From positions 1 to 64,000 of the forward strand of contig MCGO01000186.1 in assembly GCA_002104985.1 (NCBI GenBank): DNA of 64,000 nt, read 5' to 3'. Made by a program: the position numbers and the translations under genes. The stretch is from Rhizoclosmatium globosum (Eukaryota; Chytridiomycota; Chytridiomycetes; Chytridiales; Chytriomycetaceae). The first letter of the stretch is position 1. Each line of letters begins with the position of its first letter. Positions 2,065-55,696 of the stretch are shown in pieces. A model generated the notes under the pieces. That model had not been told where the DNA came from. It did not search any database and worked only from the letters and a program-made list of their open reading frames with translations.

Positions 2065-3419
2065 AATGTAGTTGTATAGTTTATTTCTGTTGCTTTAATT
2101 TGTATCAGTGTTTTAGTTTCAGAAATAGAATACACATTTGATAACCATTACTCACGTTGCAGAACACTCACTCTCACTGTCACAATCTCTCTCTCACTCA
2201 CCAAAAAAATTTTCACTTCTGTAATCTCTCCACACTCACTCTCACTGTTGCAATCTCTCTCTCACAGGTCCCCAACAGCAGGAGGTCGAAAAAATCTCTG
2301 AAGCGTCTCCTTGCTCAAACACATATAGAAAAATCTCTGTTAGAGATGAATTTTTGACTTTCACATATTTTTTCGAATCAGATTTGCCTCAACGGGTGCC
2401 CTCATTAGAACAAAAATAAATAGTTTGTTGCGTTAAATCCACTAAAAAGGCAACCAATTAAATACAGGGACAACGATAGATCCAGACCCGACTAAGAGTT
2501 CATAACCTTAGTTGCAGTATATTTCATCACCTGCGCTAAAAGGGCTCAAATACACATGAGAGATCTTTCTTACTTCCGTTCAACCAGAATTCCATTTGCT
2601 GGCCGAGATTTTATTGCATAAGCGGCACTAAGAAAGCCTCGTTCCTTTGGAATTGAGCTTCGAAATCAGGTACATTATGTGGTTGGAAGAGGCTATTGAG
2701 GTTGTTACACCACAACTCATTCAAGTCACGTAAGTCCAACACATAGAGCTTCTTACGTCTTTCAACTTTATTCAAGATTCCGACAACTTAATTCTGGATT
2801 CCGACTACACAATAGATGTCCTCAGATATTACAGGATTTGCCGGATTTCAGAGGATTTTTGGAAATCCTGATATATCCTGTTGGATTTCACTTTCTCCAC
2901 ATATATTCCAATAAATCCTCTTGGATTTTTTGCAAACCTTGAAATCCTGCAATTCTTTATTTATCCTCCTAAATCCTCTTCATTTTAGGTGGCAAGTTGA
3001 AATCCACATCTGGAGGTGGTTTTAGGAGGATTTCTCTGCGCCAAAACACAAACTCCACGAAAACAGGCCCATATGGCAGATCCAAAGCATCTTCTTTCTC
3101 TCATGTATAGGTTTCTCTTGACAAGGAAGCCTGCCATGGAGTCCGATCCTGTCAGCCATTGCCAACTGCCTGAGTTTTTTATCCCACCTGTTGCCTAGCT
3201 CGTTACTTATTTTGTCTCCCACCAATAATAAATCCTGGATAAACTTTGCCAAATCCTCTTCCGCCCAAATCCTTACACAAACACAAAAGAACACCTTTAA
3301 TCAATGTAGTTATCCACGTTGTGCAAATTGTACCACTGCCAGGGTTTCTTCGGCTTTTCATCCCCGGGTATCAAAAAAAATATCCAAAACTTGCCCCCGC
3401 AATCTTCATTGTCCAAGAA
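2065..3419. other. Intergenic stretch, no gene supported
   Basis: No ORF here has convincing protein character. It holds two near-copies of a CT-rich block (about 2164-2200 and 2230-2268, both with CACTCACTCTCACTG) and, from 2820 to about 3000, a stretch dense in GGATTT/AAATCC words. Confidence 0.5.
2820..3000. repeat. AAATCC/GGATTT-rich repeat island
   Basis: About 180 bp in which the words AAATCC, AATCCT and their complements recur at short irregular intervals. A similar island lies at 40640-41300. No coding potential is evident. Confidence 0.5.
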
Positions 3420-3423
3420 CACA

Positions 3424-3895
3424 ACACGCTGATAGAGGACGGTAACACAGGACACTGTTGGAGGACGCTGTTAGAGGACAGTAACCTGGAGGACGCTGAT
3501 AGAGGACGGTACCACAGGACGCTGTCGGAGTACCCTGGAGGACGCTGTTAGAGGACACTGTTGCAGGACGCTGTTGGAGGACGCTGTTAGAGGACGCTGA
3601 TAGAGGACGGTAATACAGGATGCTGTTGGAGGACGGTAACACAGGAGGACGCTGTTAGAGGACGTTGTTGCAGGACGGTAACACAGGACGCTGTTAGAGG
3701 ACGCTGTTAGAGGACGTTGTTGCAGGACGGTAACACAGGACGCTGTTAGAGGACGCTGTTAGAGGACGCTGTTAGAGGACGCTGATAGAGGACAGTAACA
3801 CAGGACGCTGTTGGAGGGTTAGGGTTCTGTTGGAGGACGGTAACCTGGAGGACGCTGTTGGAGGACGCTGTAGTAGGACAGTAACACAGGAGGGA
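3424..3895 (+). repeat. 13-bp minisatellite array
   Basis: Roughly 35 tandem units of a 13-bp repeat, with variants AGGACGCTGTTAG, AGGACGGTAACAC, AGGACGTTGTTGC and AGGACGCTGATAG. A single telomere-like GGGTTAGGGTT is embedded near 3817. Because 13 is not a multiple of three, the reading frames that stay open across it are incidental. The words AGGACG and GGTAAC reappear on the opposite strand in the 31-bp repeat at 4481-4590. Confidence 0.9.
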
Positions 3896-3919
3896 GGAAA
3901 GACTTTTTTAATCACCAAA

Positions 3920-4225
3920 ATGATCATTGAAATTGATAGAGACACATTGCTGGATGGCTATCAGGCTGCCCTGCGTTTCATTAAGCATCTGGAGGCCATT
4001 GTGAAGGAGCAATCAGAGCAGATTCATGACCTTCATGAGGAAATAGGCACAGTAAATCATGACAACTCTGAGCTGGAGCAAAAATTGAAGCAAGTCACTG
4101 CCTCATTGGATCAACTCAGGCAAATGCAAGTTCTGCAGGGAACAATTGAAGATGCTTCTCAAAGTGGATCAAAGAGAAGGCACTCAAGTACAAAAGCCAA
4201 AATTGAGTATACAGTTCAACAGTGA
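3920..4225 (+). CDS. Small coiled-coil protein, unknown
   Basis: A 101-residue single-exon ORF beginning MIIEIDRDTLLDGYQAAL. Residues about 20-75 are rich in E, Q, L and K with heptad-like spacing (for example HLEAIVKEQSEQIHDLHEE), which suggests a coiled coil. The C-terminal 25 residues are basic and Ser-rich (KRRHSSTKAK). The start is taken at the first ATG after the minisatellite, because upstream codons are repeat-derived. No family is recognised. It sits between two related satellite blocks, so it may belong to a subtelomeric or mobile unit. Confidence 0.45.
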   Translation: MIIEIDRDTLLDGYQAALRFIKHLEAIVKEQSEQIHDLHEEIGTVNHDNSELEQKLKQVTASLDQLRQMQVLQGTIEDASQSGSKRRHSSTKAKIEYTVQQ

Positions 4226-4390
4226 AGTAATGTTGCTGAAAGTGGGCATATTCAATGGCATATTAAATAAACATACTGATATTCTCTGAATTTACTCTCT
4301 GAATTAACCACCATACATAGAGTGTGACTGAAATATCATCCCTCCTGTGCTTATGTGCCATCAGATGTAGATTTCCATCTCTCAGAATAA

Positions 4391-4452
4391 ACATTTTTGG
4401 CTTAGTTGGTATGTAACACTGCTTCCGCTCACGAGGTGGTGGGATCAAACCC
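4391..4452 (+). mobile_element. tRNA-derived SINE-like head (A and B boxes)
   Basis: TGGCTTAGTTGG at 4398-4409 matches the RNA polymerase III A box (TRGCNNAGYNGG). GGATCAAACCC at 4442-4452 resembles the B box (GGTTCRANYCC). The offset between them is 44 nt, exactly the spacing of tRNA positions 8 and 52. The acceptor stem and anticodon stem do not pair well, so this is a tRNA-like promoter module rather than a functional tRNA. The 31-bp repeat follows directly. Confidence 0.5.
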
Positions 4453-4480
4453 ACTAGTGGGTAGCGTCCCCTGCACACAA

Positions 4481-4590
4481 GGTCAGCGTCCTGTGGGTTA
4501 CGGTCTTGCAAGGTCAGCGTCCTGTGGGTTACGGTCCTGCAAGGTCAGCGTCCTGTGGGTTACGGTCCTGCAAGGTCAGCGTCCTGCAGG
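4481..4590. repeat. 31-bp tandem repeat, about 3.5 copies
   Basis: The unit runs from AAGGTCAGCGTCCTG through GGGTTACGGTCCTGC and repeats nearly perfectly three times plus a partial copy. Its reverse complement contains AGGACGCTG and GACCGTAAC, the same building blocks as the minisatellite at 3424-3895. The two blocks are therefore related and inverted with respect to each other. Confidence 0.85.
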
Positions 4591-4610
4591 ATGAAGGTGA
4601 CTCATCCTAA

Positions 4611-5089
4611 TCACCCTAATCCAACAGTATAGAACCTGAGTCCTAACCCTAACCCTAACCCTAACCTTAAGGTAACTACAACAAACAATGAATTGTACTC
4701 AAAGAGTAGTTGTTTCCTTGTTTCAAGTAAGGTCTCTACTTCATTAAATATGTCGACAAGATTGGCGTTTCTGGACAGCAGATATCGTGATTGGTTGTTG
4801 ACAGACTTTCTGAGAATCCTGTAGTAGATGTGGAGGGCAGAGTCTTGATCCTCTCCGAACGCTTCAATTATCTTAAGTGTGGTATGTGAGAGTGAATGAA
4901 GAGACAGTAAGACAACTCACCTTGTTTCTCAGACAATCCACAGTTGTTTCAGTGAGAACGATGGTCTTTTGAGCCTTATTGTCATTATACGGTTGCACAG
5001 TGACAACCAATTCGGGATTCCCTGAGTTGTAAATTAGGCAGGAAAGAAGGTATATAATACACACCTGTTCGGGAAGCGTAGTTGCCCAT
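4611..5089 (-). CDS. Unknown protein whose 3' end lies in telomere repeats
   Basis: A three-exon model: 5065-5089, 4921-5021 and 4611-4871, with introns of 43 and 49 nt that begin GTGTGT and GTGAGT and end CAG and AAG. Phases match exactly and give 128 residues. The start MGNYAS fits an N-myristoylation consensus (inference). The middle is ordinary soluble protein (GNPELVVTVQPYNDNKAQ; later LLSRNANLVDIFNEVETLL). The last about 20 codons are translated from TTAGGG units (LGLGLGLGL) before a stop at 4611-4613. The real C terminus has therefore probably been lost, and the gene looks cut by a telomere-addition or fusion event. No family is recognised. Confidence 0.55.
4641..4672. repeat. Interstitial telomere-type repeat (CCCTAA)n
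   Basis: Four consecutive CCTAAC/CCCTAAC units, degenerating to CCTTAAGG at the right end. CCTAATCACCCTAATCC just to the left looks like further decayed units. On the minus strand this reads TTAGGG. Confidence 0.9.
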
Positions 5090-6309
5090 CAGAGGTTTCG
5101 AGAGTTGAGACAGAGTTGTTCTAGGAAGAGGCGGAACTTAAGTGAGCTCAGCTAATAGTAGGATTAGAAATGATTGAGTCTCCACCCAATTAAACCATGA
5201 ATGCACACACTTGTTGGTTATTCTTGTCAAGGACAAGGACAAGTACAGGCTAAGGCTCAAGGATCAAGAGGTTATGTGGTGTTGATCGGAGAGGTGTGTT
5301 GTTCCGGGAGACTTTGGAAGAGGAGCGTGAGGCAATGGGAGATATAAGGTGATCTTACTTTTTTCTGGGACTCGGTCTGCGTGGATCTGTTGAATCAATT
5401 ACTTTTATTGTATTTTTCCTTGACGCTCCAATAATAGTTTTTAATCAATTAGTAGAGCCCTGAAAGTTATTAATAATCATCGGTATGGACCCACCCTCCA
5501 ACAAAAAGAAAACAACAGAGAAAATAAAATAACTAGGAATACATTGGAATGGGATCTTATGCCTTTAGCTATAGATGGACGACGGAGACGACTGTTCGTG
5601 ATTTACAGTCCACATATTTAGGTGCACAAGACAAGGCAAATCTATCGCTGTGCCTCTGTTGGAATTGCTGGAAAATCACTCGTGCGTTGGCCCAGTTCTT
5701 CTGGTACCTTTGCCATTGAAAGCGATGTGTCTGACCATGACTTAAGTGAGGGTCCAAGATTTCCTGAGGTTTCTGCCTGGAAGTTCCAGTTATGAAACAG
5801 GAAGCATTCTTTGAGTTTATTACTAAAGGTTAGAAGCACAGAAAATGCTTATGAACTTGCTACAACCTGTCCGTTGACGAAATGAAAGTACGTGTCGACG
5901 AGTTCTGTCCCGACTTTCTTACCGACTGACACTTACCAACAGAGCCCATCTTCAAAGACATACTTCAATCATACTGGTGTGAGACGTTATCGGTGTGATG
6001 TTCAGGGCTGTCAGGACGTTTGTTCGTTCCGACTACCGGGCAATGTCGTGCCGCCGCGTTTCGGGTTTCAGAAAAGCCGTTGAAATTGATCGTTAAGTTG
6101 GGTGATGCGGGTCTGGACTTTGGTTTTAAGGATACCTCCACGTTTTATAAACAAGCGCGACTTGAACATGGCAGATTGGACGTGTTTGAACGAGTGGAGC
6201 TTCGTCTCTGAATCTGATGAATCGGCGTCGATAACGTCGAAACAGAGTTCAGTTCTTCTACATCCCATTTCTCTTTCTTTTTTTTCAACTTTCAGCAACC
6301 TCACCTAAG
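5090..6309. other. Intergenic stretch with possible zinc-finger remnant
   Basis: No complete gene is supported. Around 5960-6060 one plus-strand frame reads HTGVRRYRCDVQGCQD, reminiscent of a C2H2 finger linker and knuckle, but no second finger or reading frame continues. The 5560-5760 frames have no recognisable content. The final 100 bp are the NOP10 5' flank. Confidence 0.3.
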
Positions 6310-6922
6310 ATGCACTTGATGTACTACGACAGCCCAGAGGGCAAGCGAATCTACACGCTCAAGGTACAGCTACACTCAAATAAGAAGATATCGAGGTTGA
6401 GCGAAAAGCACTTCCGATGCTGCCGGTGGATCAATAGCACAGCAAGACGTTTGGATGTGAAACTAGTGATCGAAAGCAGCAAATGTTGCCGAGTGCTTCT
6501 TGAGTTGACCGAACAATATCAAAGTACTGAAATCTGGCGTGTGTATATGGAATGGGTTCGTTTAATGGTTGCCACTGAGAGTTGGACAATGAGTGTTGTT
6601 CGCCTCGAACAACTTAAACGAAATCAATAGGTGTGGGACAGGAATGAAAGTTAGGAATCGGGAACGAGTTGAACTGGGATGGAAAGGTGGGAGAAGGTCG
6701 ACGCGGATGAACGAAATAAGAACAGATTCCTACAATCACATCCGACCCATCGTTGCTCGAAACTAACTATTTATTCAATAGAAAGTAGCACCAGATGGAA
6801 AGGTGACCAAGTCAGCACACCCAGCCCGATTCTCTCCAGATGACAAGTTCTCCCGTCACCGTGTCACACTCAAGAGAAGATTTGGATTGTTGCTCACACA
6901 GCAAGCTGCCAAAGCAAAGTAA
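6310..6922 (+). CDS. NOP10: H/ACA snoRNP subunit Nop10
   Basis: Two exons, 6310-6363 and 6782-6922, encode 64 residues, the normal length of Nop10. Exon 1 begins [18 protein letters not shown], and exon 2 has the family core [19 protein letters not shown] followed by [10 protein letters not shown]. Nop10 binds Cbf5/dyskerin in box H/ACA particles, which pseudouridylate rRNA and mature it in the nucleolus. The 418-nt intron (GTACAG..AATAG) is many times longer than the roughly 50-nt introns of neighbours. Its first 267 nt stay open in frame, which is probably chance. No frame break is present. Confidence 0.95.
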
Positions 6923-41782: not shown

Positions 41783-44700
41783 ATGCAACTGGATGCAGAT
41801 GTGCTTGTGAACCCTGGACCAGGCATGGCGGGAGTGTTCCGCATCACATCGACGATAGTGAATCTTGCCGAGGGAGTACCGCACGATCGGGCACGGATTC
41901 GACGACTTGCTTTAAGGATTCAGGTGTGTGTACCCGTTGACAGCTAATTGGGTAGTTCGTGTTAACCTAGTTTGGTGTGTGTGTGTGTATATTGTAGATG
42001 CTCAGTCTCTCGTTGAACACTCTTTCGCACTTTGGAGAACTGGGCGATGTTGGAAGCACCGAAGAAGGTGGTGCATCGACACCAAAGCAAACTAGGCCTG
42101 GCACACCTTCAATTGCTTCAATTGGTTCAAAAGAAAAGGAAAAGCGACTGAGTCTCGTTGAATCGGCAAAGAACAAGTTGGCGGCAATTGTCACTACTTC
42201 GTCGCCACTTTCAATGTCAACTTCGAATCAAACTTCAAATTTAAATCACTCTTCAAACGACGCTGACTCAGACTTCGAAGACAGTGAAAAGGAGGCCGCC
42301 CAGTTGGTTCAGCGGAAAATGTCGTCTCGGGCTTGGAATGCTGTCAGGCGTCTTTCTTCAATGGCCCTGTCTCCACTCGCTCAAACTGCAATGCCACAAC
42401 TGCCACTTGAGCAACAGCAGCTGCAACTGCCTGGAACTATCCCCCTCTCTCCCTCCCGCCGCATTCCTCCCTCCCACATGTCCCTCTCTTCCCTCCTGCT
42501 TCTCCTTGAACGCATCAAGGGCTTCATCAAGAACAACTCTTCAAGTGACTTGCTCAGAATAATGGGTACCCGTCAACGCTTTGAAGATCGTCTAAAAGGA
42601 TTTCAAGGACTTGTTCGTACCTGGGTCGAGGAAGTTGGTGATGGGGTGTGTATTTGTGTTTGATCACAAGCGAGATTGGTTGAGTGCACCTGCAACTAGA
42701 GAAAGAACAATTCATCACAACAAGATGACTCAGAGAGACCGAGTTTGAATCTTTCAGGGAACAGGGCAATAGCGAGTGGACCGAACATTATCAAAAGTGT
42801 GAGGAAAGAATAGCGAGTGAAGGACATCAAACGATCAGCACTCTTCAGACACCGCCGTTATCTCTTCTTCTGTCTCTAACTTACCACGTTTGGCATTACA
42901 ATCCAAACTAACCAACACTCAAAGATCGACTCACCGGAAACATATGACCTCGACGACGTACAAGATATAGTCTCAGACATTGAATCACTCAAACAAATTC
43001 TATCAACTCATATCCTACGAGTCACTGGGGACCGCGAATATTCCCCCAAAAAATCACAACCCAATCTTGACGAAAATCAAGACTATGATTCTAGCACCGA
43101 CGAAGACGGCGACTTTTCCCTCCTCCCCGAACTCCATATCCCCGTCGGAATGTATCCTGCATCCCTCGAATTCGCACACAGACGTCTGTCAGAACTCCTC
43201 GCAATCTCTCAGGAATCAACACACCTGGCCGCTGTGTTCCAAACACCCGTCCAATCCTCAGATACAGACCACTACAGCATCGATATTTCCCTTGAAATCA
43301 AATGGCTCAGTCTTGTTGTGAAGGCTCTTTCAGGATACCAGCCTCTTTCTCCGGGCTCCATCTCTCCATATGATCTCGATGAAGAAGGGGACGGTGCACC
43401 GTTGGGACCTATTGGAGTCTCTGAATCAGTCAGAGGATCCCTATTTCCACATGGGAACTCTGTGTTTGATGCACGCGATGTTGTCATTAAACGAGTTCGT
43501 ACTCCAAAGAAACGTGACACTCGACAGCAATTCTATGAATCCGTACGTCTTATTTATTTATGGTTTCCTTGACTATAACCTAACCCCAATTGTTCAGAGT
43601 TTATCATGGCTCCAAACATCTGCAACAAACAAATCCCTCAAAATACTTCCACTTCTCGGTGTATGCTACGAAACAATCCCACCTCTCCTCGTAACGCCAT
43701 ACCTCAAAAACGGAAACATTTTGCAGTACTCGAAACTATACCCGGGACATTCCCTTCGTTTGCTGACTGAGACTGCTTCGACAATGTCTGCGCTTCATTC
43801 GCTTGGGATCTTGCACGGTGCACTGCGATCCTCGAATGTGTTGGTCGATGACGCCGGGAAAGCTGTTGTTGCTGATTTCGGATTGTGGGAGTATCGACGA
43901 GATGTTGGGATTGATGGTTTAGCGAGGAATGGATGGCGACGATGGACAGCCCCAGAAGTCCTTCGTGGAGGTAATAATTACCCACCCGATTTCTTTTTTT
44001 GCTGACTAATGCCGTCATATTAGGAAATCTGAAACCACACTCTGATGTATACAGTTTCGCCATGACAATGTACGAGATCCTCTCAGGAAACATGCCCTTC
44101 CACAACACCCTAAACGACCCTGACGACCCCAACTCCGGATTCGAGCCTGACACTGAAGAAAGCGATATCGCGCGATTAGTCCTCTTCGACTCAATTCGTC
44201 CAACAAGGCCGTCTCACTGCCCAGACAAATTCTGGGCTCTGATTGAATCGTGTTGGATCCAAGACCCGTTACAACGTCCCTCGTTTTCAAGCATCGAAGG
44301 GCAATTACAGACCTTGTTGAAGATGCAAGCGCAATTCCGTCGTCAATCTCAAATCAAATCACGCGCGGAAGCGTTTTTGGTTGAAGTCCCGTTGGATGAT
44401 TTGATGAGCTCTGTGATGGCGGTTGGATCGCCAAAGTCGACTGCGAGGAACTCGTTGAATGTTGCGATTCCGTCTGCGGTTCCTGACCGTGTTTATGAGA
44501 AGGATCTTGATTCTGCAAAGTCGTCGAGTCGGATTAGTGTGAATTTGTCGTTTAACTTGGACTCGAATGTGTTGTTGTCGACGATTCGGCCGCTTCCGCT
44601 TGGTATTGATTTGCCGCCGGAGTCTGATGAGTCTGATACGGACTCTGATGGTGAAAATCTTCCAATTGATACGATTGAAGAATGGTCTTCCGAATATGAC

Positions 44701-45612
44701 GAATCAATCTTTGCATTCTGGGATGTTCTGACTTCAACAATCAAGACCGATGTGACAACTTCCATCTCATTCACTGACTTCGCAACATCGCTTCGCCTCA
44801 ACTACCCAACCCTGATTCCTTCCCTCCCTTCCCTCAAAACCGCATTCGCAGACCCATCCAACCCAAACACAGTCACATTCCCCCAATTCCGTAAATACAT
44901 CACAACCCAACTCCCCGAATCCGCAATGAAAGAATCAACCTCCTTCGCACCACTTGAACAAATCTTTGGCCAATTCTGTATCGCCCACGACGCCGAAACA
45001 AACCCCCAATCCCGCGGCCCGATTTCAACCACCCGCATCGCCGAAACAATGACAAACCTCACCGCCGGAAACCTCGCCATCGACCTTTCCGCCCAACACT
45101 ACCTCCACACCCTCGTCACCCTCCCAAACGCCCTCGGCCTCGACGTTCTCGAAACCCTGACAGACCCACGCGTCATACTCCCATACGAGTTCTCAACCCT
45201 CATCAACGCGACATACGATTCCCGCGGAAACCTCCCCCTCCACGCCGCCGCGAAGCTCGCAAGCGACAATTCCCTGATTGTCCGGCATTTACTCATCCAC
45301 GGCGCGGACCCATCGATCGTGACGAGGAAGGGTGGTTGGACGGCGTTGCATATTGCGTCGTGGGTAGGATCTGTTGCGACGCTTGAGGTTTTGTTGGAAG
45401 TTTCGTCGCGGGCTGTTGTTTTGCAGAGGGATGAAGAGGGGTGGACTTGTTTGATGCATGCTGCGCGGTATGGCCATTCCGGGTGTGTGCAAGCGATTTT
45501 GGGGGTGATTGAAGATGTGGAAGGTGTTAAGATGTTGATTGATGAGGCGTTTGAAGTTGCAGTGAAGTTTGGGCAGGAGGAAGTGGCGGGGTTGTTGGAT
45601 GAACGGATTTAA
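41783..45612 (+). CDS. Kinase-like (TKL-type) protein with ankyrin repeats
   Basis: Exons seen include 41783-41923, 41998-42645, one near 42760-42885, 42925-43542, 43598-43970 and 44024-45612, giving over 1,100 residues. The join near 42645 is unresolved by one base. A Ser-rich N-terminal half precedes the kinase-like domain: VVIKRVRTPKKRD with the ATP-binding lysine, PYLKNGNILQYSKL, then LHSLGILHGALRSSNVLVDD. The HRD/HGD catalytic aspartate is alanine, although DFG (VVADFGLWEY) and APEVLRGG are kept. A GNMPFHNTL/DPLQRPSF C-lobe end follows. The C terminus has ankyrin repeats (RGNLPLHAAAKLASDNSLIV; GWTALHIASWVGSVATLEVL; EGWTCLMHAARYGHSGCV). It is probably a pseudokinase scaffold. A 90-bp copy of its exon/intron junction lies at 47847-47940. 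Confidence 0.75.
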
Positions 45613-45756: not shown

Positions 45757-46403
45757 TCATGCTTCTTTACAAAGTCTTTCTGACACCTTCAGATCAATAC
45801 AATCAATACTTTCATATCTCAATCGCAATAACTGCATAGACACAAAATGACAATCGAATAAACTCCATCGATAGTCAATCATAGAAACTGTGCCGTTTAC
45901 AATATCTTCTTGATTCCACCTTTGAATATACGGTTTGCAGATGTTTACATACTTGGTCGGATGCGAATTAGTAATGTTTCAAATGACCCCAAACCAAACG
46001 AGGAACTCACATATAGCCCTAGAAAGCAATATTCAAATAACAGAATCCCTATCTGAATGATAGCAGGCGGTGAATACAGAATGAGAGGTATATCCGCAGC
46101 ATAACGACTTTGGAGGACAACAAGCACGACAGCCCATCCAAAAGCGATCAGAGACAGCGTTGATGCAACAAATTCAAAGTATCTTCGACTTTTGTGTAAG
46201 GCGCTGTTGAGCTCTTCCAGTTGATCATCCGTGGCGTGTGTTTGTGTCTTGGCTGCTGAATCTTGTGAAGGATGTGATTGTTTGAATGCGGAACCACGGC
46301 AGTCAAAGTCAAAGGACTTGAGAAGTACGAATCCGTTGGGAATGTGGGTGATCATGGCTGGATGTGGCAGTGACAGTGTGCACGCAGTGGATGGTGACAT
46401 CAC
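45757..46403 (-). CDS. Two-helix family, copy 1 (divergent, no PY motif)
   Basis: Exon 1 is 46011-46403 and exon 2 is 45757-45951, with a 59-nt intron directly after the second helix, as in the other copies. The hydrophobic segments are YFEFVASTLSLIAFGWAVVL and SPPAIIQIGILLFEYCFLGL. Exon 2 starts YVNICKPYIQRWNQEDIVNG, matching the family pattern Y-V-x-I-x-x-x-x-x-x-W-x-x-E-D-x-x-x-G. PPxY and LPxY are absent, and the C terminus is different (VSERLCKEA). An inner ATG at 46355 (MITHIPNGF) is an alternative start. This is the outermost copy, next to the kinase-like gene. Confidence 0.6.
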
Positions 46404-46497
46404 AGAATTTTATGACAGAGATCTGAGAAAGTAGGCCAGAGCAGATGAAAGGATGTATGTACATATACTTTATGGCTATAACACTTCCGTAACTGCT

Positions 46498-47385
46498 TCA
46501 TTCAGCTCTACCTCTGTATTCTGGTAAAAATACGACAGGCATCAGCTCTTGGACCTCAGACCTCTCGAAAATACCAATCTTGACATTAATGAACGTAGAT
46601 AACACATTGGCTTTGCGCTTTTGCAAGGTGAAGAACAAGTTGATGTTCTCGTCATGACAGCTTTTGTTGAATCGACGAACAAATGCGTCCACAACCCCAA
46701 CGTACTAAAATATCAATGAATCAATTAACGAATTAAGCTAAAAACTGTAAGATTGTCCTGTTACCTTTGCACTGATTTCAACAGACGGCATCAGTCCATA
46801 CACAATCAAGGGTATAATAACCAAAGAGAATCCAGCCCATAACCGATCGTGAGCGTAAATAAATACTGCTGTGGCCGATACAATACAGACGACAGCCGTG
46901 ATTATGACGAAAGAGCCATAATAACGCAAAAGCCAAATACTCTTGATCGACTCTGGCGAACTCAAGAGCTCATTCAATTCCCGCATTTTAGACTCGTATT
47001 TCTCAGGGGAGATAATGTGGTGCAAAATAGTTGGGCACGATGTTTTAAAGAAATTTGGTTGACTATCAATTCGCATTGTCACGGTCTCCAGTAATATCAT
47101 TCCTGGTGGTCTATGACCATCGTATTCTGGAGGAGGTTCAGAAGGAACTCGATTAATGCGGGCAGCTGATCTTCGAGGCACTTCGTTGCCCTCTGGTTCT
47201 TCGATTCCGATATTGACGACATCAGAGTTGTTTTCGCGATTGGCAGGATCTGGGGTTTGTATGCTTGGATTGTCATCGCTTTCATATTCGTACTTGACGT
47301 CAGCCTCGCTGTGTCCTTTGTACACACTAGAGGCCTCCACTGCATCAGCCGCATTTGGTGAAGGTGATGGCGCTGGAGTGGACAT
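46498..47385 (-). CDS. PY-motif two-helix membrane protein, copy 2
   Basis: Exons 46765-47385 and 46498-46704 encode 275 residues. The N-terminal tail has acidic stretches and SEPPPEYDG (PPxY). A conserved block follows (PNFFKTSCPTILHHIISPEK; ELNELLSSPESIKSI), then two helices (YGSFVIITAVVCIVSATAVF and AGFSLVIIPLIVYGL). Exon 2 (YVGVVDAFVRRFNKS) ends VFLPEYRGRAE with LPxY. Both tails would face the cytosol for a two-helix hairpin, placing both PY motifs where a WW-domain ligase could bind. Its N-terminal and C-terminal tail segments have been copied into the chimera at 48135-49307. Confidence 0.75.
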
Positions 47386-47576
47386 TGTAAACTAGATATG
47401 AGGACGTTGATTGCGGCGATTGGAAGTTGGTGGTATTAAATTGAGCACGCTTTCCAACGATTGGGCTTGCCTTGAGTGCTCAAACGGTCACCTTTACAGA
47501 ACAGCGCAAGACAACCAGACTTTAATAGATCTCACGCATCACATAGAAGATAAAGTCGCCATATACCTTCAAGCAG

Positions 47577-47840
47577 CTAGGCAGCATACTCTGGCAAGTT
47601 CTCTCCCATCACATTACGAACAGTATCGCCCATAACTCCTTGTCTTTCAAATACAAGCAGCTGTGCATTGATACGACCAAAGTCCTTTGGATCCCCTTGA
47701 AAATTCTTTATATTGTGAAACAGATTTACTCCCTGAGCATCATCCTCTTGAGTCCATTTCTTTGCAAACTCAGAAACAATCTCGATGTATTAATGCATCC
47801 ATTAAATCGATAATGCTAATCCATACATCCCAGGAATCAA
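47577..47840 (-). pseudogene. Remnant of a PY-motif family copy
   Basis: The second exon of a family member is readable (YIEIVSEFAKKWTQEDDAQG to ENLPEYAA, LPxY kept), with a few codons of the second helix (ILLIPGMYGL). It then breaks off at about 47840 into a plus-strand kinase fragment. The 47333-47790 segment closely resembles 49990-50440 around copy 3, so this is the truncated twin of copy 3 produced by segmental duplication. Confidence 0.65.
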
Positions 47841-47846
47841 CAGAAT

Positions 47847-47940
47847 AATGATTGACGGTTTAGCGAGAAATGGATGGGGACGATGGACAGCCCCAGAAGT
47901 CCTTCGTGGAGGTAACAACTATCCTTCCCCAATATTCGTT
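47847..47940 (+). repeat. Duplicated kinase-gene fragment
   Basis: About 90 bp nearly identical to 43908-43998 of the kinase-like gene, covering IDGLARNGW through APEVLRGG and the first bases of the following intron (GGTAACAACTA versus GGTAATAATTA). It lies on the plus strand inside the minus-strand array, at the break of the remnant copy. Confidence 0.8.
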
Positions 47941-48134
47941 TGTTTGTATTGGAAGTGGTGCCCGGGGCGTGCGGTGGAAACGGAGGTCGGGATGGAGTCG
48001 GAGGCGTGGGAGTATAATGGTGACATGCAGGGTGACATGTGTAGGCTTTTACGACAGAGATCTGAGAAAGATGGACAGAGCAGATGGAAATATATGTACA
48101 TAGACTTTATAGCTTTAACTTTTCCACATCTGCT

Positions 48135-49307
48135 TCATTCAGCTCTACCTCTGTATTCTGGTAAAATTGGCACGGTATCCACTCCTGGTGGTCTATGGTC
48201 ATCGTATTCTGGGGGAGGTTCAGAAAGAACTCGATTAATACGGGCAGCTGATGGTCCTTCGATTCCGATATTGACGACATCAGAGTTGTTTTCGCGATTG
48301 GCAGGAGCTGTTGGATTGTCATTGCTTTCATATTCGTGCTTGATGTCAGCCTCGCTGAGTCCTTCGTACACACTAGAAGCAGTCTTTCTGCTCTGAGTCT
48401 GGATAGCTCTCAACTCGAGGGCATCAACAAGAACCTGCTTGGAGTTGACACCAGCAACCTTGTTAACGAACTTTGGCTGGGTCTCGACAATCTCGAGGAC
48501 GGCATCGGCGAGGCCGGAGTAGGAGATTTGGTTGGTGAGGCCGGTCAAGGTCTTCTCGCCGGCTTCGTCGTAGACAAAGACATCGTTGGGCTTCGAGGTC
48601 TCGATCAAGGTTGGTGGACGCTAATAGATAGGTATAATATTTGTCAGTTTTTGTTGTGTTGCGCCAATTAGGGTTTTTGGAAAGGAAACGTGTCAGCCAT
48701 AAGAATTTTTGAATGGTTGTTTGCCAGAGTGATGGTTTGATCCCTACTGGCTTTCACGATCCGATAGGAAGAGATAGTCGGCCATATGTACTTACGAAGA
48801 CAGTGTACTTGATGTTGACATGCTTAGCGACGAGCTCGACCAAGTCCTTCTCGGCGTGGATAAGCTCAGCGTAGAGAGCTCTCTCCAATAATGGAGCAGT
48901 TGGCCTAGCACCCTCAGCAGAGACGAGGTAGATATGCTTGAACTTGTATCCGTGGACCTAGATAGGTGCAGTTTTTTAGAGATCTAACCCTTCCCTCCAA
49001 TTTATTGCCAATTTATGATCAAAGATACCGTGTTGGCCTCAACGTAGGCAGCAACACGCTTGACGGCGTGGTGGGCAGCCTGGTGGTGCTCGGCACCTCC
49101 GGCAATGACAACAACGTCGGCCTTGACGAGGAGCTCGTCAAGGGTGTTGGCAACGGAGAATTTCTTGGCCTCGGTGAAGGTCTTATTCTGATTCCCGAGG
49201 GCAACGACGCGGTGGCCGTTCTGGAGGGCGTTGCCAACGAACTGGGCGGAGGTCTTGGAGTTGGTCTCGAAGACGGCGATGGTGTGCTTGGGGCGGAAGA
49301 AATGCAT
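48135..49307 (-). CDS. NAD(P)-binding protein fused to PY-motif tails (chimera)
   Basis: Exons 49029-49307, 48796-48957 and 48135-48620 encode 308 residues in phase. The first about 210 residues look like an NmrA/SDR-type Rossmann protein: HTIAVFETNSKTSAQFVGNA, ALGNQNKT, ADVVVIAGGAEHHQA, FKHIYLVSAEGARPTAP, YTVFRPPTLIE and NQISYSGLADAVLEI. From about residue 220 the sequence switches to the tail of array copy 2 (SSVYEGLSEADIKHEYESND; PPPEYDDHRPPG) and ends ILPEYRGRAE, the same C terminus as copy 2. Both membrane helices are missing, but both PY motifs remain. Codons in the Rossmann part are GC-rich (GCC, AAG, GTC), unlike the tail, supporting fusion of two sources. Confidence 0.7.
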
Positions 49308-49399
49308 TTGAAGTGGTTGGGTTTTGAATGTGGGTTTTCTGATGGCGTTTTCACTTTTTGGCTACTGAGGGAGACACCATCTAATCCTTTTTCTGCCAT

Positions 49400-50231
49400 T
49401 TAACATTTTCCGAGAAAAGAATGCGCACAAGGGTCGTGTAGTCATTGAAATATTACGACGCTTATCAGACACAGTACAGCCACAATCAGTCTTTTTTAAG
49501 AATAATACGAGATAAAGAAGAGAGGAAGAGAGAGAATTTAAGCTCAAACGAAAAGAGGGACTTCTCTGATTAGAAGATGATAGCAAAAGTAGACTAAGTC
49601 CGCACATACTGTAAGCCAAAGATGTTCACCATTCTCACCCTTTCAACCATCATCTCTTCTTAGATCCCTTTCTCATCGAAGTTAGAAAACAAGCTACGAT
49701 CCTATGGCACTCATCTCGATTGCCCCTCATCGTGTTCTTAAAATTCATCCCGTGAATCTTGAACTTCAGAACTTCGTGATTTCTCGTTTAGGCTCTATGG
49801 TTTCTGAAGACAGCAGAGAATGAAGTAGCTCAAACTTAAAAAGGAAGTTCAGTATCTCGGACAGAGTTAATATTTATCACTTCAAACAATGCTCGTTCAC
49901 ACCTTCAGGACATGACAGACACTCTTATCTTTTTTTTCTCCAATACTTTGCTTAAGGATCGTACAGTTTAGATGACTATCTGGACCGTGCAAGGCTTCCA
50001 CTCCATCAGCCGCATTTGGTGTAGATGATGCCGCTGGAGTGGACATTGTAAACTAGATATGAGGACTATTGATTGTTGGCAGTCTACATTTAATTGGGCC
50101 AGCTTTCCAGCAATTGGGCTTGCCTTGAGTGCTCAAACGGCCACCTTCAAAACATAACAAACAATAACCAGATTTTAATACATTTCAAGCATCACATAGA
50201 AGATAAAATTTACTATATTCTATTGGTACAA
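49400..50231. other. Intergenic within the array
   Basis: No gene is supported. The right half (from about 49990) is a diverged duplicate of the 5' flank at 47333-47480, sharing GTGGACATTGTAAACTAGA and TTGGGCTTGCCTTGAGTGCT. The left half shows nothing recognisable. Confidence 0.6.
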
Positions 50232-51064
50232 CTAGACTGCATACTCTGGCAAGTTTTCTCCCATCACGTTGCGAACAGCATCACCCATGACTCCCAGTCT
50301 TTCAAATACAAGCAATTGGATATTGATTCGACCAAAGTCTTTGGAATCCCCTTGAATCTTTTTGACGTCGTAAAACAGATTTACTCCCTGACCATCATCC
50401 TCTTGAGTCCACTTCTTTGCAAATTCTTGAACAATCTCGATGTACTTATGGAGTGACAAAGAAGGTTAGAATGGATTTGTTGGCACAATTGCTTAAATAT
50501 AGTGCACCACTCCACCCTTACCTTAACATCCGTCGATAGAGATAACCCATACATCCCGGGAATCAACATAATAATGAAAGCATATGCACCGCTTGTTCCT
50601 CCAATCGCAAAGAATATTGAAAACGACAGCACCAAACACACAGCTATGATTCCAAACCCAATCCATCGAAACCGTTTGAAATACTCCATGCTTTTCAAAC
50701 TTTCATCTGTATTCAGTTTCTCGTTCAACTCATTGATGCGGTTCAGATACGTCAGATTGGGGATCTTGTCTTCCAATCGAGCTGGTCTTTGTGGACTAAA
50801 GAAAGCAGGCTTGCTTTCAAAGTCTATTTTTACAACAGCGAGTAGATTGGCACCGATTGGGATGGGGCCATCATAGTCGGGAGGAGGTTCGACTTGTGTT
50901 TGAAGCGAAGTTGAATTGAGGTTATCTATGTCGATGGCAGCGGCAGCCTGTGGTTCCCGTAGCTCGATCTGCTCAACTGCTTCAAAGGGAGGCGGATTGA
51001 TGGTCGCCTGGGGTGGTTGATGGGGAGCGGATCGAGTTGTGGTGTTGATTTGGAATTGAATCAT
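50232..51064 (-). CDS. PY-motif two-helix membrane protein, copy 3
   Basis: Exons 50522-51064 and 50232-50444 (77-nt intron) encode 251 residues. The N tail contains EPPPDYDGPIP (PPxY). The conserved block FFSPQRPARLEDKIPNLTYL and ELNEKLNTDESLKSMEYF follows. The helices are WIGFGIIAVCLVLSFSIFFA and YAFIIMLIPGMYGLSL. Exon 2 starts YIEIVQEFAKKWTQEDDGQG and ends ENLPEYAV (LPxY). It is intact, and is the best match of the remnant at 47577-47840. Confidence 0.75.
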
Positions 51065-51122
51065 GTTTAGTTTTAAGTTTTGTGCGACAACAGCATTTAA
51101 TTCTTTTCGTAAATGAGGTATA

Positions 51123-51879
51123 TTATACGGGGCTATACATGGGCAATTCCTCTGTCACTAATGGTTCGCCTGGAACCCTTCTTTCGTAAATCAGAAGCAC
51201 AACATCTGTTCTCGACTGTTGCTGTTGCGATCGAACTGAGTGATGTCTATATATCAAGTTGATTCCTTGGGCCGCATCTTCGTCCGACCACTTCTTGGCA
51301 AACCCTTCCACAATCGTTACGTACTGTTGAATTGAGGTCAGCCAGTTGATCACTACCATCGAAACATACCTGTGCAGTCATGGGAACCCAAATTCCATAA
51401 ATAACGGGAATCACAAGTAACGCATAGCCATACACCTCTGTTGTGACAAGATCAATTACGAGAGCAGTAACAAGGGTGACAGCCAGCAATACAAGCCAAA
51501 TTACACGCAATCGAGTCAAATGCTTTATACTATCCAAACTTGCTTTCGTGTTGAGGTGTTGGTTCAACTCAGTCATTCGTGCCAGGTACAGGTTGTATGG
51601 GATCTTGCCATCAAGGCGATCAGGCAGCCGGGTATTAAAGAAGTTTGGTTCCTTGTCAAACTGCATTCTGACTGCGGCAAGCAGAACATTGTTGGTTGAA
51701 GGAGGGTTGTCATACAAAGGAGGAGTTGTGTCAAGGGGTGGCAGAACGTTGATCGCAAGAGTTTCTCGAGTTGGTCTCTGAGAGAGTTGATCTAGGTGAT
51801 CAATTGATGGTGGTTCGGAGCTAGGTTGCCGCTCCGGTGGGGTATTGGAAAGTGGAGGGTTGTTCTGAGGGTTGCTCAT
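51123..51879 (-). CDS. PY-motif two-helix membrane protein, copy 4
   Basis: Exons 51370-51879 and 51123-51323 (46-nt intron) encode 236 residues. The PPxY motif is in TTPPLYDNPPS. The conserved block reads EPNFFNTRLPDRLDGKIPYN and ELNQHLNTKASLDSIKHL. The helices are VIWLVLLAVTLVTALVIDLV and GYALLVIPVIYGIWVPM. Exon 2 begins YVTIVEGFAKKWSDEDAAQG and ends ELPMYSPV (LPxY). It is intact. Confidence 0.75.
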
Positions 51880-51972
51880 TTGGCTTTGAAATCTCAGGTG
51901 TGGCGCGTGCCTCTTTTCCCTTTATCAGTTTCATAGACGTAAAAGCATTAAGAAAAGAATAATGCATGAGAT

Positions 51973-52637
51973 TTAAATTTGTTCTTCTACGTAATTGGGC
52001 AATTCTTCAATATCCACTCCAACTTGATCTGAAGCTTTTCCATAGACATGTAGATTAAGTTCAATGATGCGTCCTCTTGAGTCCATTTCTTGGCGAAGTC
52101 CTCAACAATGGCGACAAACTTAAAACAAGAAATGAATAAGAAGAGAGAAAAGAAGATAATACAACAGTACCTTTTCGTGTCTGGGTACAAGAATCGCATA
52201 AAGTGCAGGTACACTCAACAACGCAAATCCATAAGCAACTTTAACGATTGACAAGATCAAAAATCCTGCTGCAATCGAAACCAAGACCAGTGTGATTCCA
52301 AGTGCAAACACTTGACCCAAATACGTCATACTCCGCAAGCTTGCTTTTGTGTTTAAGTGCTGATTCAGCTCCTGCATCCGATGGAGATACACATTGTAAG
52401 GGACCTTTCCGTCAAGGCGCCTTGGAAGCCTGGTGTTGAAGAAATTCGGTTCATTGTTGATATGGAACTTGATGGCAGCAAGCAGAACGGTGCCGGCAGG
52501 TACTGGACCGTCATATTGGGGAGGGGCTTCGATAGGAGAAATATCAAGAACAGCATCGGATTGAATCTGCTGAAGCTCTATCTCTTCGACGGTTTTGCAG
52601 GAGGACCAGCGGCAGGTTGAGGCTGTTCTGTGGTCAT
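51973..52637 (-). CDS. PY-motif two-helix membrane protein, copy 5, frame-broken
   Basis: Exons 52171-52637 and 51973-52118. The start MTTEQPQPAAGPPAK matches the MTT/MAT starts of copies 6 and 7. The frame then breaks in an A-run before VEEIELQQIQSDAV, as if one A were missing. PPxY is in EAPPQYDGPVP. The block EPNFFNTRLPRRLDGKVPYN and two helices (GITLVLVSIAAGFLILSI and YGFALLSVPALYAILVP) are kept. Exon 2 (FVAIVEDFAKKWTQEDASL) breaks once more before ending DIEELPNYVEEQI (LPxY). Both breaks have the polarity of one lost base. Confidence 0.65.
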
Positions 52638-52937
52638 TTTCACTCAATTTAAAAGACCCATTCAGCCGCCACGCCACGTGCTTATGGCAATCAAATCTTC
52701 AGTGGAGACATACAACGCTATACACAAAAAGTTCAATTAAAGGATAAAAGGCGAGTTGGCGGTTAATGAGCAACCAACAGCAACACCAACTTCAACTCTC
52801 AATAACGAAGTTAACCTAAATAGAAGAGAAACCCCTCTTGTCTGGCTTCATGAGCACAAACATCACAAAAAGTGGACAATTCTGTGTATAGCACTATCAA
52901 AAACTATAAATGTATGATATATTTAACATTACGATGA

Positions 52938-53749
52938 TTACGCGGGTGTGTAAGTTGGCAAATCCTCAAGAACTTCCGTTCCACCTCCAGTCGGAGTCTT
53001 TTCAAAAATCAGCAAAGCAAGACTAGTCCTCGTCTCTTGCCTATCAGGCTGAATTTTCTTCACTATATACACCAAATTATGTCCAAGAACTTCATCTTCC
53101 TCCGTCCATTTCAGTGCAAAGTCTTCCACAATCGAAACATACTGAATGCAGTGTGCGTTAGATTTCAAACCCAAGAATACAACAAGCAAAAAACCCCCCC
53201 ACTCACCTGTGCACTCATAGGAACCAACATCCCATACCCAATCGGAATCAAAATCAACGCAAACACATAAGACGCCTTCGTAAACAAATTCACAATCAAC
53301 GCCGTCGCAACACAAACAACAAACAGAATCGTCCCAATCAACCGCAACCTCGCCAAATTCTTCATACTGTTCAAGCTTGCGTTCGTGTTCAAGTGGGTAT
53401 TGAGTTCCGTCATTCTGTGCAGGTACGTGTTAAATGGGATCTTTCCTTCAAGGCGATCGGGGCGGCGGGTGTCGAAGAAGGTTGGCTGCTTGTCAAAGGC
53501 CATGCGAACTACGCAGAGGAGTGTTGTGTTTAGCGGTGTTGGGCCGTCGTAGGTTGGAGGGGCTTCGATTGGGGAGACAGTGGGAGACAGTTGCTGGTTG
53601 GCTTGTGGTGGCACTGCATCACTAATTGCGATAACTGTTTGAGATGGACGAGGTTCGGATTGTTCAGTTGTTTCAAATGGTGGTGGATTGGTACTTGGGG
53701 AAGGCTGAGGAGGCGAAATGGTGGGCGTCGGTGGTGATGCAGTAGTCAT
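52938..53749 (-). CDS. PY-motif two-helix membrane protein, copy 6
   Basis: Exons 53207-53749 and 52938-53141 encode 248 residues. The Pro-rich N tail carries EAPPTYDGPTP (PPxY). The conserved block is QPTFFDTRRPDRLEGKIPFN and ELNTHLNTNASLNSMKNL. The helices are IGTILFVVCVATALIVNLF and YVFALILIPIGYGMLVPM. Exon 2 starts YVSIVEDFALKWTEEDEVLG, continues LVYIVKKIQPDRQETRTSLA and ends EDLPTYTPA (LPxY). It is intact. Confidence 0.75.
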
Positions 53750-53815
53750 GGTTTCGATCAATTTCTCATCCAAGAAAATAATAGTTGTTATACGTGAATT
53801 TATGCATCAAATCAA

Positions 53816-54596
53816 TTAAACTGGTGAGTAGGTCGGCAGGTCTTCGATAGCTTCAGCTCGTCTACCAGTTTCTGCAATCACAGTCTTCTCAAATATCAGC
53901 AACACAACATCAATTCTTGTCTGCTGTCTCTCTGGTCGAATCTTTTGCACTTCATACACTAAACTATTTCCAAGAAGTGCATCTTCTTCCGTCCACTTCT
54001 TCGCAAAGTTCTCCACAATTGAAACATACTATCGTATAATAGATCAGTAGATTAAAAGAGAGTTGGATTGTACATACCTGAGCATTCATTGGAACCAACA
54101 TACTGTATATAAACGGAATCAATATCAACGCGAAAATCAGCTGTGATTTGATGACCAAGAACACAACCACAGCAGTCACAACACAAACTCCAAACAACAC
54201 CGACCCGATGATCCTAAATCGTGCCAAATACTTCATACTGTTTAAACTGGCTTTCGTGTTTAGGTGAAGGTTCAATTCTGTCATTCGGTGGAGGTAGGTG
54301 TTATATTCGACTTTGCCTGCAAGGAGATCTGGGCGGTGCGTGTCAAAGAAGGTTGGTTCTTTGTCGAAATTTATGCTAACTCCGCAAAGTAGGACAGTGC
54401 CGACTGGTACCGGGCCGTCGTAGGTTGGAGGGGCTTCGGGAGACAGTGTGTCAATAGGTGGTGGCGGATCATTGTCAATGGAAACCGTAGTTTGTGACTG
54501 CTGAGCTTCGGTTTGATTTACAGTTTCGATTGTTGGAGGATCAGATGAGGAGAGAGGCTGCTGCGTTCGAGAGGTATCGGTGGTTGTTGTTGCCAT
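53816..54596 (-). CDS. PY-motif two-helix membrane protein, copy 7
   Basis: Exons 54078-54596 and 53816-54028 (49-nt intron) encode 243 residues, starting MATTTTDTSRTQQPL. PPxY is in EAPPTYDGPVP. The block EPTFFDTHRPDLLAGKVEYN and ELNLHLNTKASLNSMKYL precedes the helices IIGSVLFGVCVVTAVVVFLV and IFALILIPFIYSMLVPM. Exon 2 is YVSIVENFAKKWTEEDALLG to EDLPTYSPV (LPxY). The frame is open further upstream, but the ATG at 54596 matches the paralogues. Confidence 0.75.
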
Positions 54597-54910
54597 TTGG
54601 ATTTCGAAATCGGATGAGGTTTTGTACCCGTGCGAAAAAAGTTTGATTTCAAACTGGACCTCTTTTGCGGTTATTTTCGATTTACGTTTATTCATTGTTT
54701 CTGATATAGCGGGGAAAAGTGTTGGGAAAATGCCCATAATGACGTACAATAAGAGATTTTAAACCAAGGAAAACTACAGCCAATATTTTATATAAAGTGC
54801 AAAAAACCAACTCTCAATAGCTGGTACGAAGAACCATAGTTCTCCCTTTATTTCTTATTTAACAGAATGGCATTGATGCTGAATCATGCAGCATCACTGA
54901 AACAAAGCAA

Positions 54911-55696
54911 TTACGATGGTCTATAGCTTGGTAAGTCTTCTTCTTCAGTGCGTCTTATTGGTTCAGCCAACGTAGTCTTTTCAAAGATCAGCAATACAAC
55001 GTTAATTCTTGTCTGCTGATTTGACGGTTGCTTCTTTTGAACTTGATACACCAAAGACTTTCCAATCTGTGAATCTTCCTCGGTCCACTTCTTCGCAAAG
55101 GTTTCAACTATTGAAACGTACTAGATGTGTTGCCGCACTTGTTAAATCAACACACATAAAAATAAACTGATGCAACAGACATACCTTTGCATTCATTGGG
55201 ACTAACGAGACATAAGCAATTGGAACAATTAACAGCGCGAAGCGAAAGTCAACTGCGATTTGAAGACAAAGAACAGAATTACGGCCTTTGCAGTAAAAAC
55301 TACAAACAACGCCAACCCAAGCACTCTAAGCCGTACCAAATACTTGATACTGTTTAAACTGGCTTTCGTGTTCAGGTGAGCGTTCAATTCCGTCATACGG
55401 TGGAGGAAGGTGTTATATTCGACTTTGCCTGCTAGTTGATCTGGGCAATTTGTATCAAAGAAGGTCGGTTCCTTGTCAAAATTCATGGGTACTGCCCAAA
55501 CAAAGACAGTTCCGGCTGGTACTGGCCCGTAGTAAGTTGGAGAAGCTTCGGGGGTAAATGCAGATATATCATTGTCAATGGCAACCGCAGTGTTTGCCTG
55601 ACGAGGTTTGGATTGTCCTACGACTTTGGCAGGTGGAGGGTAAGATATGGTCGAAGACTGCTGTGAGTGAGTGGCGTTGTGGACAGCTGCCACCAT
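54911..55696 (-). CDS. Two-helix membrane protein, copy 8, frameshifted
   Basis: Exons 55185-55696 and 54911-55120. The N-terminal motif has become EASPTYYGPVP, so PPxY is lost. The conserved block (EPTFFDTNCPDQLAGKVEYN) is kept. In the second helix the frame is broken by a tandem duplication of TTCGC (about 55240-55250), after which LLIVPIAYVSLVPMNAK continues in another frame. Exon 2 (YVSIVETFAKKWTEEDSQIG) ends EEDLPSYRPS (LPxY). It is probably decaying, although one error of sequence cannot be excluded. Confidence 0.65.

Follow-up and report, generated by a model that had tools for sequence, protein, structure and literature searches.

A tandem array of Erf4/GOLGA7-like membrane proteins with PY-motif tails in the chytrid Rhizoclosmatium globosum

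Analysis of a 64,000-nucleotide stretch of the Rhizoclosmatium globosum genome (contig MCGO01000186.1, positions 1 to 64,000; hereinafter, the window) identified a tandem array of genes on the minus strand (55696-45757) that belongs to a chytrid family of small membrane proteins. The family is real, conserved and expanded, and the new point is that its core resembles GOLGA7 (GCP16)/Erf4. The interpretation that we favor, with modest confidence, is that these are membrane-anchored Erf4/GOLGA7-like proteins whose tails, with PY motifs (PPxY or LPxY), recruit a Nedd4/Rsp5-type ubiquitin ligase to the membrane. This interpretation builds on the family itself, the conservation of the motifs, purifying selection, the likeness of the fold, and a genome that encodes both an Erf2-type acyltransferase candidate and a ligase with three WW domains and a HECT domain. 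The original prediction, made from the window alone, had described eight copies of a two-helix protein with PY motifs at both ends and had suggested that they may be a lineage-expanded set of ligase adaptors or cargo. The genome that contains the window comprises 56.9 Mb in 420 contigs, with the window on contig C97; R. globosum JEL800, probably the strain of the window, is a saprotroph that degrades chitin (PMC12115818).

Read 5' to 3', the array consists of c1, c2, c3, c4, c5, c6, a window-only segment, c8 and c9, which correspond to copies 8, 7, 6, 5, 4, 3, 2 and 1, in this order, of the original prediction. The genes share a common plan: exon 1 encodes a proline-rich N-terminal tail, an FFxTxxPxxLxGKIP..ELNxxLNT block and two hydrophobic segments, and a phase-0 intron of 46-77 bases directly precedes exon 2, which begins with Y/F-V/I-x-I-V-E and ends, at the C-terminus, in LPxY. 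The array and its shared plan stand as predicted, but only five copies (c2, c3, c5, c6 and c8) are intact in the window, with the predicted PPxY and LPxY motifs in frame; the frame of c1 is lost, c4 is broken with its LPNY out of frame, and c9 contains no PY motif.

The C-terminal LPxY is the hallmark of the family as judged from a 14-row alignment (A7) that combines array copies with dispersed paralogues and with Obelidium and Chytriomyces relatives. It is retained in all 14 rows despite only 16-60% identity to the first row, and its L, P and Y make up three of the seven invariant columns, the others being P, L, N and L in the core. When the tails were shuffled protein by protein, [LP]PxY appeared in 0.3-4.3% of the shuffles (p 0.003-0.043; the rows are related, so that these p values are not independent). 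The earlier impression that the tyrosine motifs look selected is therefore upheld. Unlike LPxY, the N-terminal PPxY is found in only half of the rows (7 of 14), namely, c2-c6, c8 and paralogue G, that is, in the array and a single dispersed paralogue; one Obelidium row has PPFY within the core. Among the relatives of paralogues H and I (H/I-type), a second C-terminal motif, TPAPxY, and LPxY are both kept in 7 of 7 rows, including those from Obelidium and Chytriomyces. The alignment leaves out c1 (broken), c9 (no PY motif), additional alleles of genes already represented, paralogues I and K2 (which have a frame break or an incomplete model, and both of which end in LPAY), and the database proteins P0002, P0004, P0005, P0006, P0012 and P0013 (mis-modelled, fused, truncated or fragmentary).

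A comparison of synonymous and nonsynonymous substitutions between alleles gave dN/dS ratios of 0.07-0.29 for c2-c6 and c8 (14 allele pairs): the copies with PY motifs are under purifying selection between alleles. For c9, which has neither motif, the ratio between two alleles is 0.84, and this copy is little constrained.

The match to the Pfam family GOLGA7/Erf4 (PF10256) recurs in 11 of the 14 rows in the same register (best E-value 4.7e-5), with the matched stretches beginning at profile positions 11-17; the next family matches 3 of the 14. The best Pfam Erf4 scores belong to paralogue I together with the Obelidium protein P0009. A search of the genome with PF10256 yielded eight places; seven are members of the family, and the remaining one, at C187, looks unrelated by eye. 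The modeled core of the family is predicted to adopt the GOLGA7/Erf4 fold, with moderate fold scores. The remaining Pfam matches (LPG_synthase_TM, E-value 0.0016, TrkH, Got1, MFS, MENTAL and DUF2207_C) involve one to three rows each, do not recur and mostly fall on the hydrophobic hairpin, and were rejected. The structure model of the H/I-type P0009 reached a pLDDT of 39, and the H/I profile has no match in PDB at E<=10; P0009 itself hit four isoleucyl-tRNA synthetase chains (E-values 0.35-0.73), which we took as chance.

Several observations weigh against the favored interpretation. All PF10256 scores fall below the gathering cut-off of 29.3 bits, the best being 23.8 for a whole protein and 25 for a single exon when the genome was searched. 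The RDYS motif after the first strand, which in GOLGA7 is required for ZDHHC5 binding (PMC12528901), is present in none of the 14 rows; near its place, RYD or RYN occurs in 4 of 5 H/I-type rows. Furthermore, PY motifs alone prove little, as PPxY occurs in 11.7% of human proteins (PMC8509885). Since the register and the fold fit whereas the cut-off and RDYS do not, we call the family Erf4-like rather than Erf4. Beyond these differences from GOLGA7/Erf4, the family adds the proline-rich N-terminal tail, the invariant C-terminal LPxY and tandem expansion, and its hydrophobic hairpin is stronger than that of GOLGA7, as compared over 58 GOLGA7 residues only.

Two hydrophobic segments are present in all five family proteins tested, in line with the predicted two-helix hairpin, which puts both tails on one side of the membrane; by analogy with GOLGA7/Erf4, this side is probably cytosolic. 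Small size, a membrane location and PY motifs in the tails are shared with the ligase adaptors and cargo Ndfip, Bsd2 and Sna3, from which the family differs in its core and in that ligase binding is predicted here from the motifs. Among the Pfam matches of 13 proteins at E<=10, there is no known ligase-adaptor family, as judged by the names that we take to denote such families (NEDD4_Bsd2, Sna3 type). The loss of RDYS and the moderate fold scores would nevertheless suit a convergent origin of a Sna3-like self-sorting cargo or an Ndfip/Bsd2-like adaptor that has no link to S-acylation, with the fold being only a scaffold retained from an ancestor or a fortuitous resemblance, and PY motifs on a small membrane protein are a known recipe (Sna3: PMC2171029). 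We consider such convergence unlikely because the Erf4 match recurs in one register and again in structure, and because no known adaptor family is found among the Pfam matches.

On the side of the ligase, a Nedd4-type enzyme with three WW domains upstream of HECT is encoded at C212:277945-279835 and at C414:77349-79241, places that look like alleles. Ligases of this type are the best-known readers of PPxY and LPxY on small membrane proteins, which makes it improbable that the tails are bound by other WW proteins instead, even though, of the 55 WW places detected at E<=0.01, only 6 (two allele-like groups of three) are situated no more than 3 kb from a HECT match at E<=1e-10. On the side of the acyltransferase, a DHHC protein at C361 contains KHNYRHFF after the DHHC box and NPF..G....VFCRP in a later open frame, motifs which we take to be marks of an Erf2/ZDHHC9-type enzyme; by its sequence, this protein is an Erf2-type acyltransferase candidate. 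In RNYR and in the C-terminal motif, the residues reported as essential or most critical are the second arginine and the last cysteine, respectively (PMC12528901, PMC10076531).

These partners also fit another possibility, to which we assign a low but appreciable probability: the PY-tailed proteins might be accessory subunits of an acyltransferase and at the same time substrates of the ligase, so that the tails serve the turnover of the subunit and its DHHC partner and not the delivery of a ligase. Yeast Erf4 shields Erf2 from endoplasmic reticulum-associated degradation and is also needed for acyl-group transfer, and GCP16 stabilizes DHHC9 (PMC10076531), such that the level of the subunit would control the enzyme; moreover, apart from the place at C187, this family accounts for all PF10256 matches in a genome with an Erf2-type candidate. 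Nevertheless, RDYS is absent, several diverged copies face one such candidate, and introns might have hidden a canonical Erf4 from the search.

The exons of the array, all on the minus strand, are as follows.
55185..55696, minus strand, c1 exon 1, SPTY; frame lost in the second of the two hydrophobic segments (window haplotype)
54911..55120, minus strand, c1 exon 2, ends in LPSY
54078..54596, minus strand, c2 exon 1, PPTY
53816..54028, minus strand, c2 exon 2, LPTY
53207..53749, minus strand, c3 exon 1, PPTY; C400 allele annotated as P0001
52938..53141, minus strand, c3 exon 2, LPTY
52171..52637, minus strand, c4 exon 1, PPQY; frame broken near the N-terminus (window haplotype)
51973..52118, minus strand, c4 exon 2, shortened, LPNY out of frame (window haplotype)
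51370..51879, minus strand, c5 exon 1, PPLY
51123..51323, minus strand, c5 exon 2, LPMY
50522..51064, minus strand, c6 exon 1, PPDY
50232..50444, minus strand, c6 exon 2, LPEY
46765..47385, minus strand, c8 exon 1, PPEY
46498..46704, minus strand, c8 exon 2, LPEY
46011..46355, minus strand, c9 exon 1, shortened, without a PY motif
45757..45951, minus strand, c9 exon 2, without LPxY

The assembly contains the array locus three times, on C97 (the window), C400 and C12, which are probable haplotypes given that the aligned stretches are roughly 91-97% identical. Several haplotypes seem to have been kept as separate contigs; in particular, the match lists of C68 and C79 are mirror images. None of the three alleles of c1 is intact, those on C400 and C12 carrying lesions different from that in the window, whereas c4, with two breaks in the window, has an intact frame on C12 and C400 and in strain JEL0117; the broken c1 and c4 alleles have lost their PY motifs in part. 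Such decay and variation between haplotypes are reminiscent of selfish killer families, such as fission-yeast wtf and Neurospora Spk-1, which are likewise lineage-specific families of membrane proteins with PY motifs; wtf antidotes bind Rsp5-family ligases via these motifs (PMC10721834), and PY motifs could mark an antidote form here. We regard this explanation as highly improbable: unlike wtf and Spk-1, the family shows purifying selection between alleles, a conserved motif at the C-terminus and an Erf4-like fold, and it has members in three genera.

Between c4 and c5, C12 contains a 4.4 kb insertion (locus L017, about 2300-6650) whose reading frames resemble reverse transcriptase and which, by eye, is a non-LTR (long terminal repeat) retrotransposon; at the same site, C400 has a different insertion of 2 kb, with inverted repeats near the ends and no open frame longer than 139 amino acids. 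Adjoining the array on the plus strand of the window (43978-45612) is a long open frame with, by eye, a kinase-like start and ankyrin-like repeats.

Searches of the genome with c5 and c8 detected 52 and 31 places, respectively (haplotypes and exons counted separately), including the following dispersed paralogues.
Paralogue G, on C235, C34 and C394: PPAY; LPIY/LPMY
Paralogue H, on C388 and C411: LPLY and APEY
Paralogue I, on C388: LPAY and APEY; frame break in the allele at C388:700304 (L019)
Paralogue J, on C80, C278 and C388: LPSY and VPSY
Paralogues K1 and K2, on C189, C364 and C93: LPTY, LPAY

As judged from splice sites read by eye, paralogues G, H, I, J and K1 share the position of the intron that precedes the last helix. 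Array-type relatives were seen in Rhizoclosmatium only; the copies counted in the original prediction include broken ones. Of the H/I type, besides those of R. globosum, there are two relatives in Obelidium mucronatum, two in Chytriomyces hyalinus, one in strain JEL0117 and one fragment in R. hyalinum (P0013, by eye close to exon 2 of paralogue I). The absence of relatives elsewhere is weak evidence because the search detects only sequences that share exact five-residue words. The JEL0117 proteins were rejected as independent orthologues, given that the c6 part of P0005 agrees with the C400 allele in 250 of 251 positions and differs only at the fused end. The family tree is weakly resolved, with long branches and 3 of 11 inner branches starred, and was therefore used solely for the split that places H/I/J-type rows on one side and array/G/K-type rows on the other.

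No publication on this chytrid family was found in the literature searched, which covers few subscription journals. Among the matches listed, Erf4 and Rsp5 are co-mentioned in passing only, and the papers that name both GOLGA7 and Nedd4 mention GOLGA7 once or twice each; Erf4 is absent among those listed for Erf4, Rsp5 and the PY motif, and the family was not found among those listed for Erf4, Golgin subfamily A and PF10256 in fungi or for chytrid PPxY gene-family expansion. Palmitoyltransferase together with Rhizoclosmatium led to sphingolipid work only. The original view of an undescribed set of adaptors or cargo is half right; the resemblance of the core to GOLGA7/Erf4 had not been considered.

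The original list of the array was incomplete, having missed two elements in or beside the window-only segment.
47577..47789, minus strand, orphan exon 2 (c6-like, LPEY) at the edge of the segment
48135..49307, minus strand, chimeric gene inside the segment, an in-frame fusion with a c8-like tail bearing PPPEY and LPEY

Neither C400 nor C12 has an equivalent of the segment (about 47.8-50.0 kb), on both sides of which lie copies of c6 exon 2 with adjoining DNA. A fresh insertion was rejected as unproven: the flanks are 81% alike, compared with 91-97% between haplotypes, and therefore loss from C400 and C12 is at least as likely. The first 225 residues of the chimeric gene product match genes at C2:133630 and C106:49092 (83-93% by exon), and the product has no Pfam match at E<=0.1. 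With this first part and a c8-like end, the predicted gene joins a PY tail to an unrelated protein by fusion.

Under the favored interpretation, a core composed of a strand, a helical block with the hydrophobic hairpin and a two-stranded sheet would hold both tails on the same, probably cytosolic, side, where the C-terminal LPxY, together with the N-terminal PPxY of the array or the C-terminal TPAPxY of the H/I-type, would bind the WW domains of a Nedd4/Rsp5-type ligase. The core would keep the ligase at the membrane, where it would either sit next to a DHHC acyltransferase and control that enzyme's stability or act as a derived adaptor that brings the ligase to other cargo; a ligase-docking tail on such a core could set the lifetime of the acyltransferase or deliver the ligase to its neighbors. 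Binding to the ligase and to the acyltransferase, like the cytosolic side of the tails, is what we infer here. More tentatively, the family may be a chytrid bridge between S-acylation and ubiquitination, in which an ancestral, invariant LPxY lets Erf4/GOLGA7-like subunits bring a Nedd4-type ligase to DHHC complexes, or in which such subunits became ligase adaptors, with tandem expansion in Rhizoclosmatium and the PY tail lent by fusion to an unrelated protein. Erf4 and GOLGA7 help decide the stability and activity of certain DHHC acyltransferases, and what becomes of many membrane proteins is controlled by Nedd4-type ligases; an Erf4-like core that nearly always comes with a ligase-docking motif would unite both control systems in one gene product, and a nameless group of chytrid proteins gains a testable identity.

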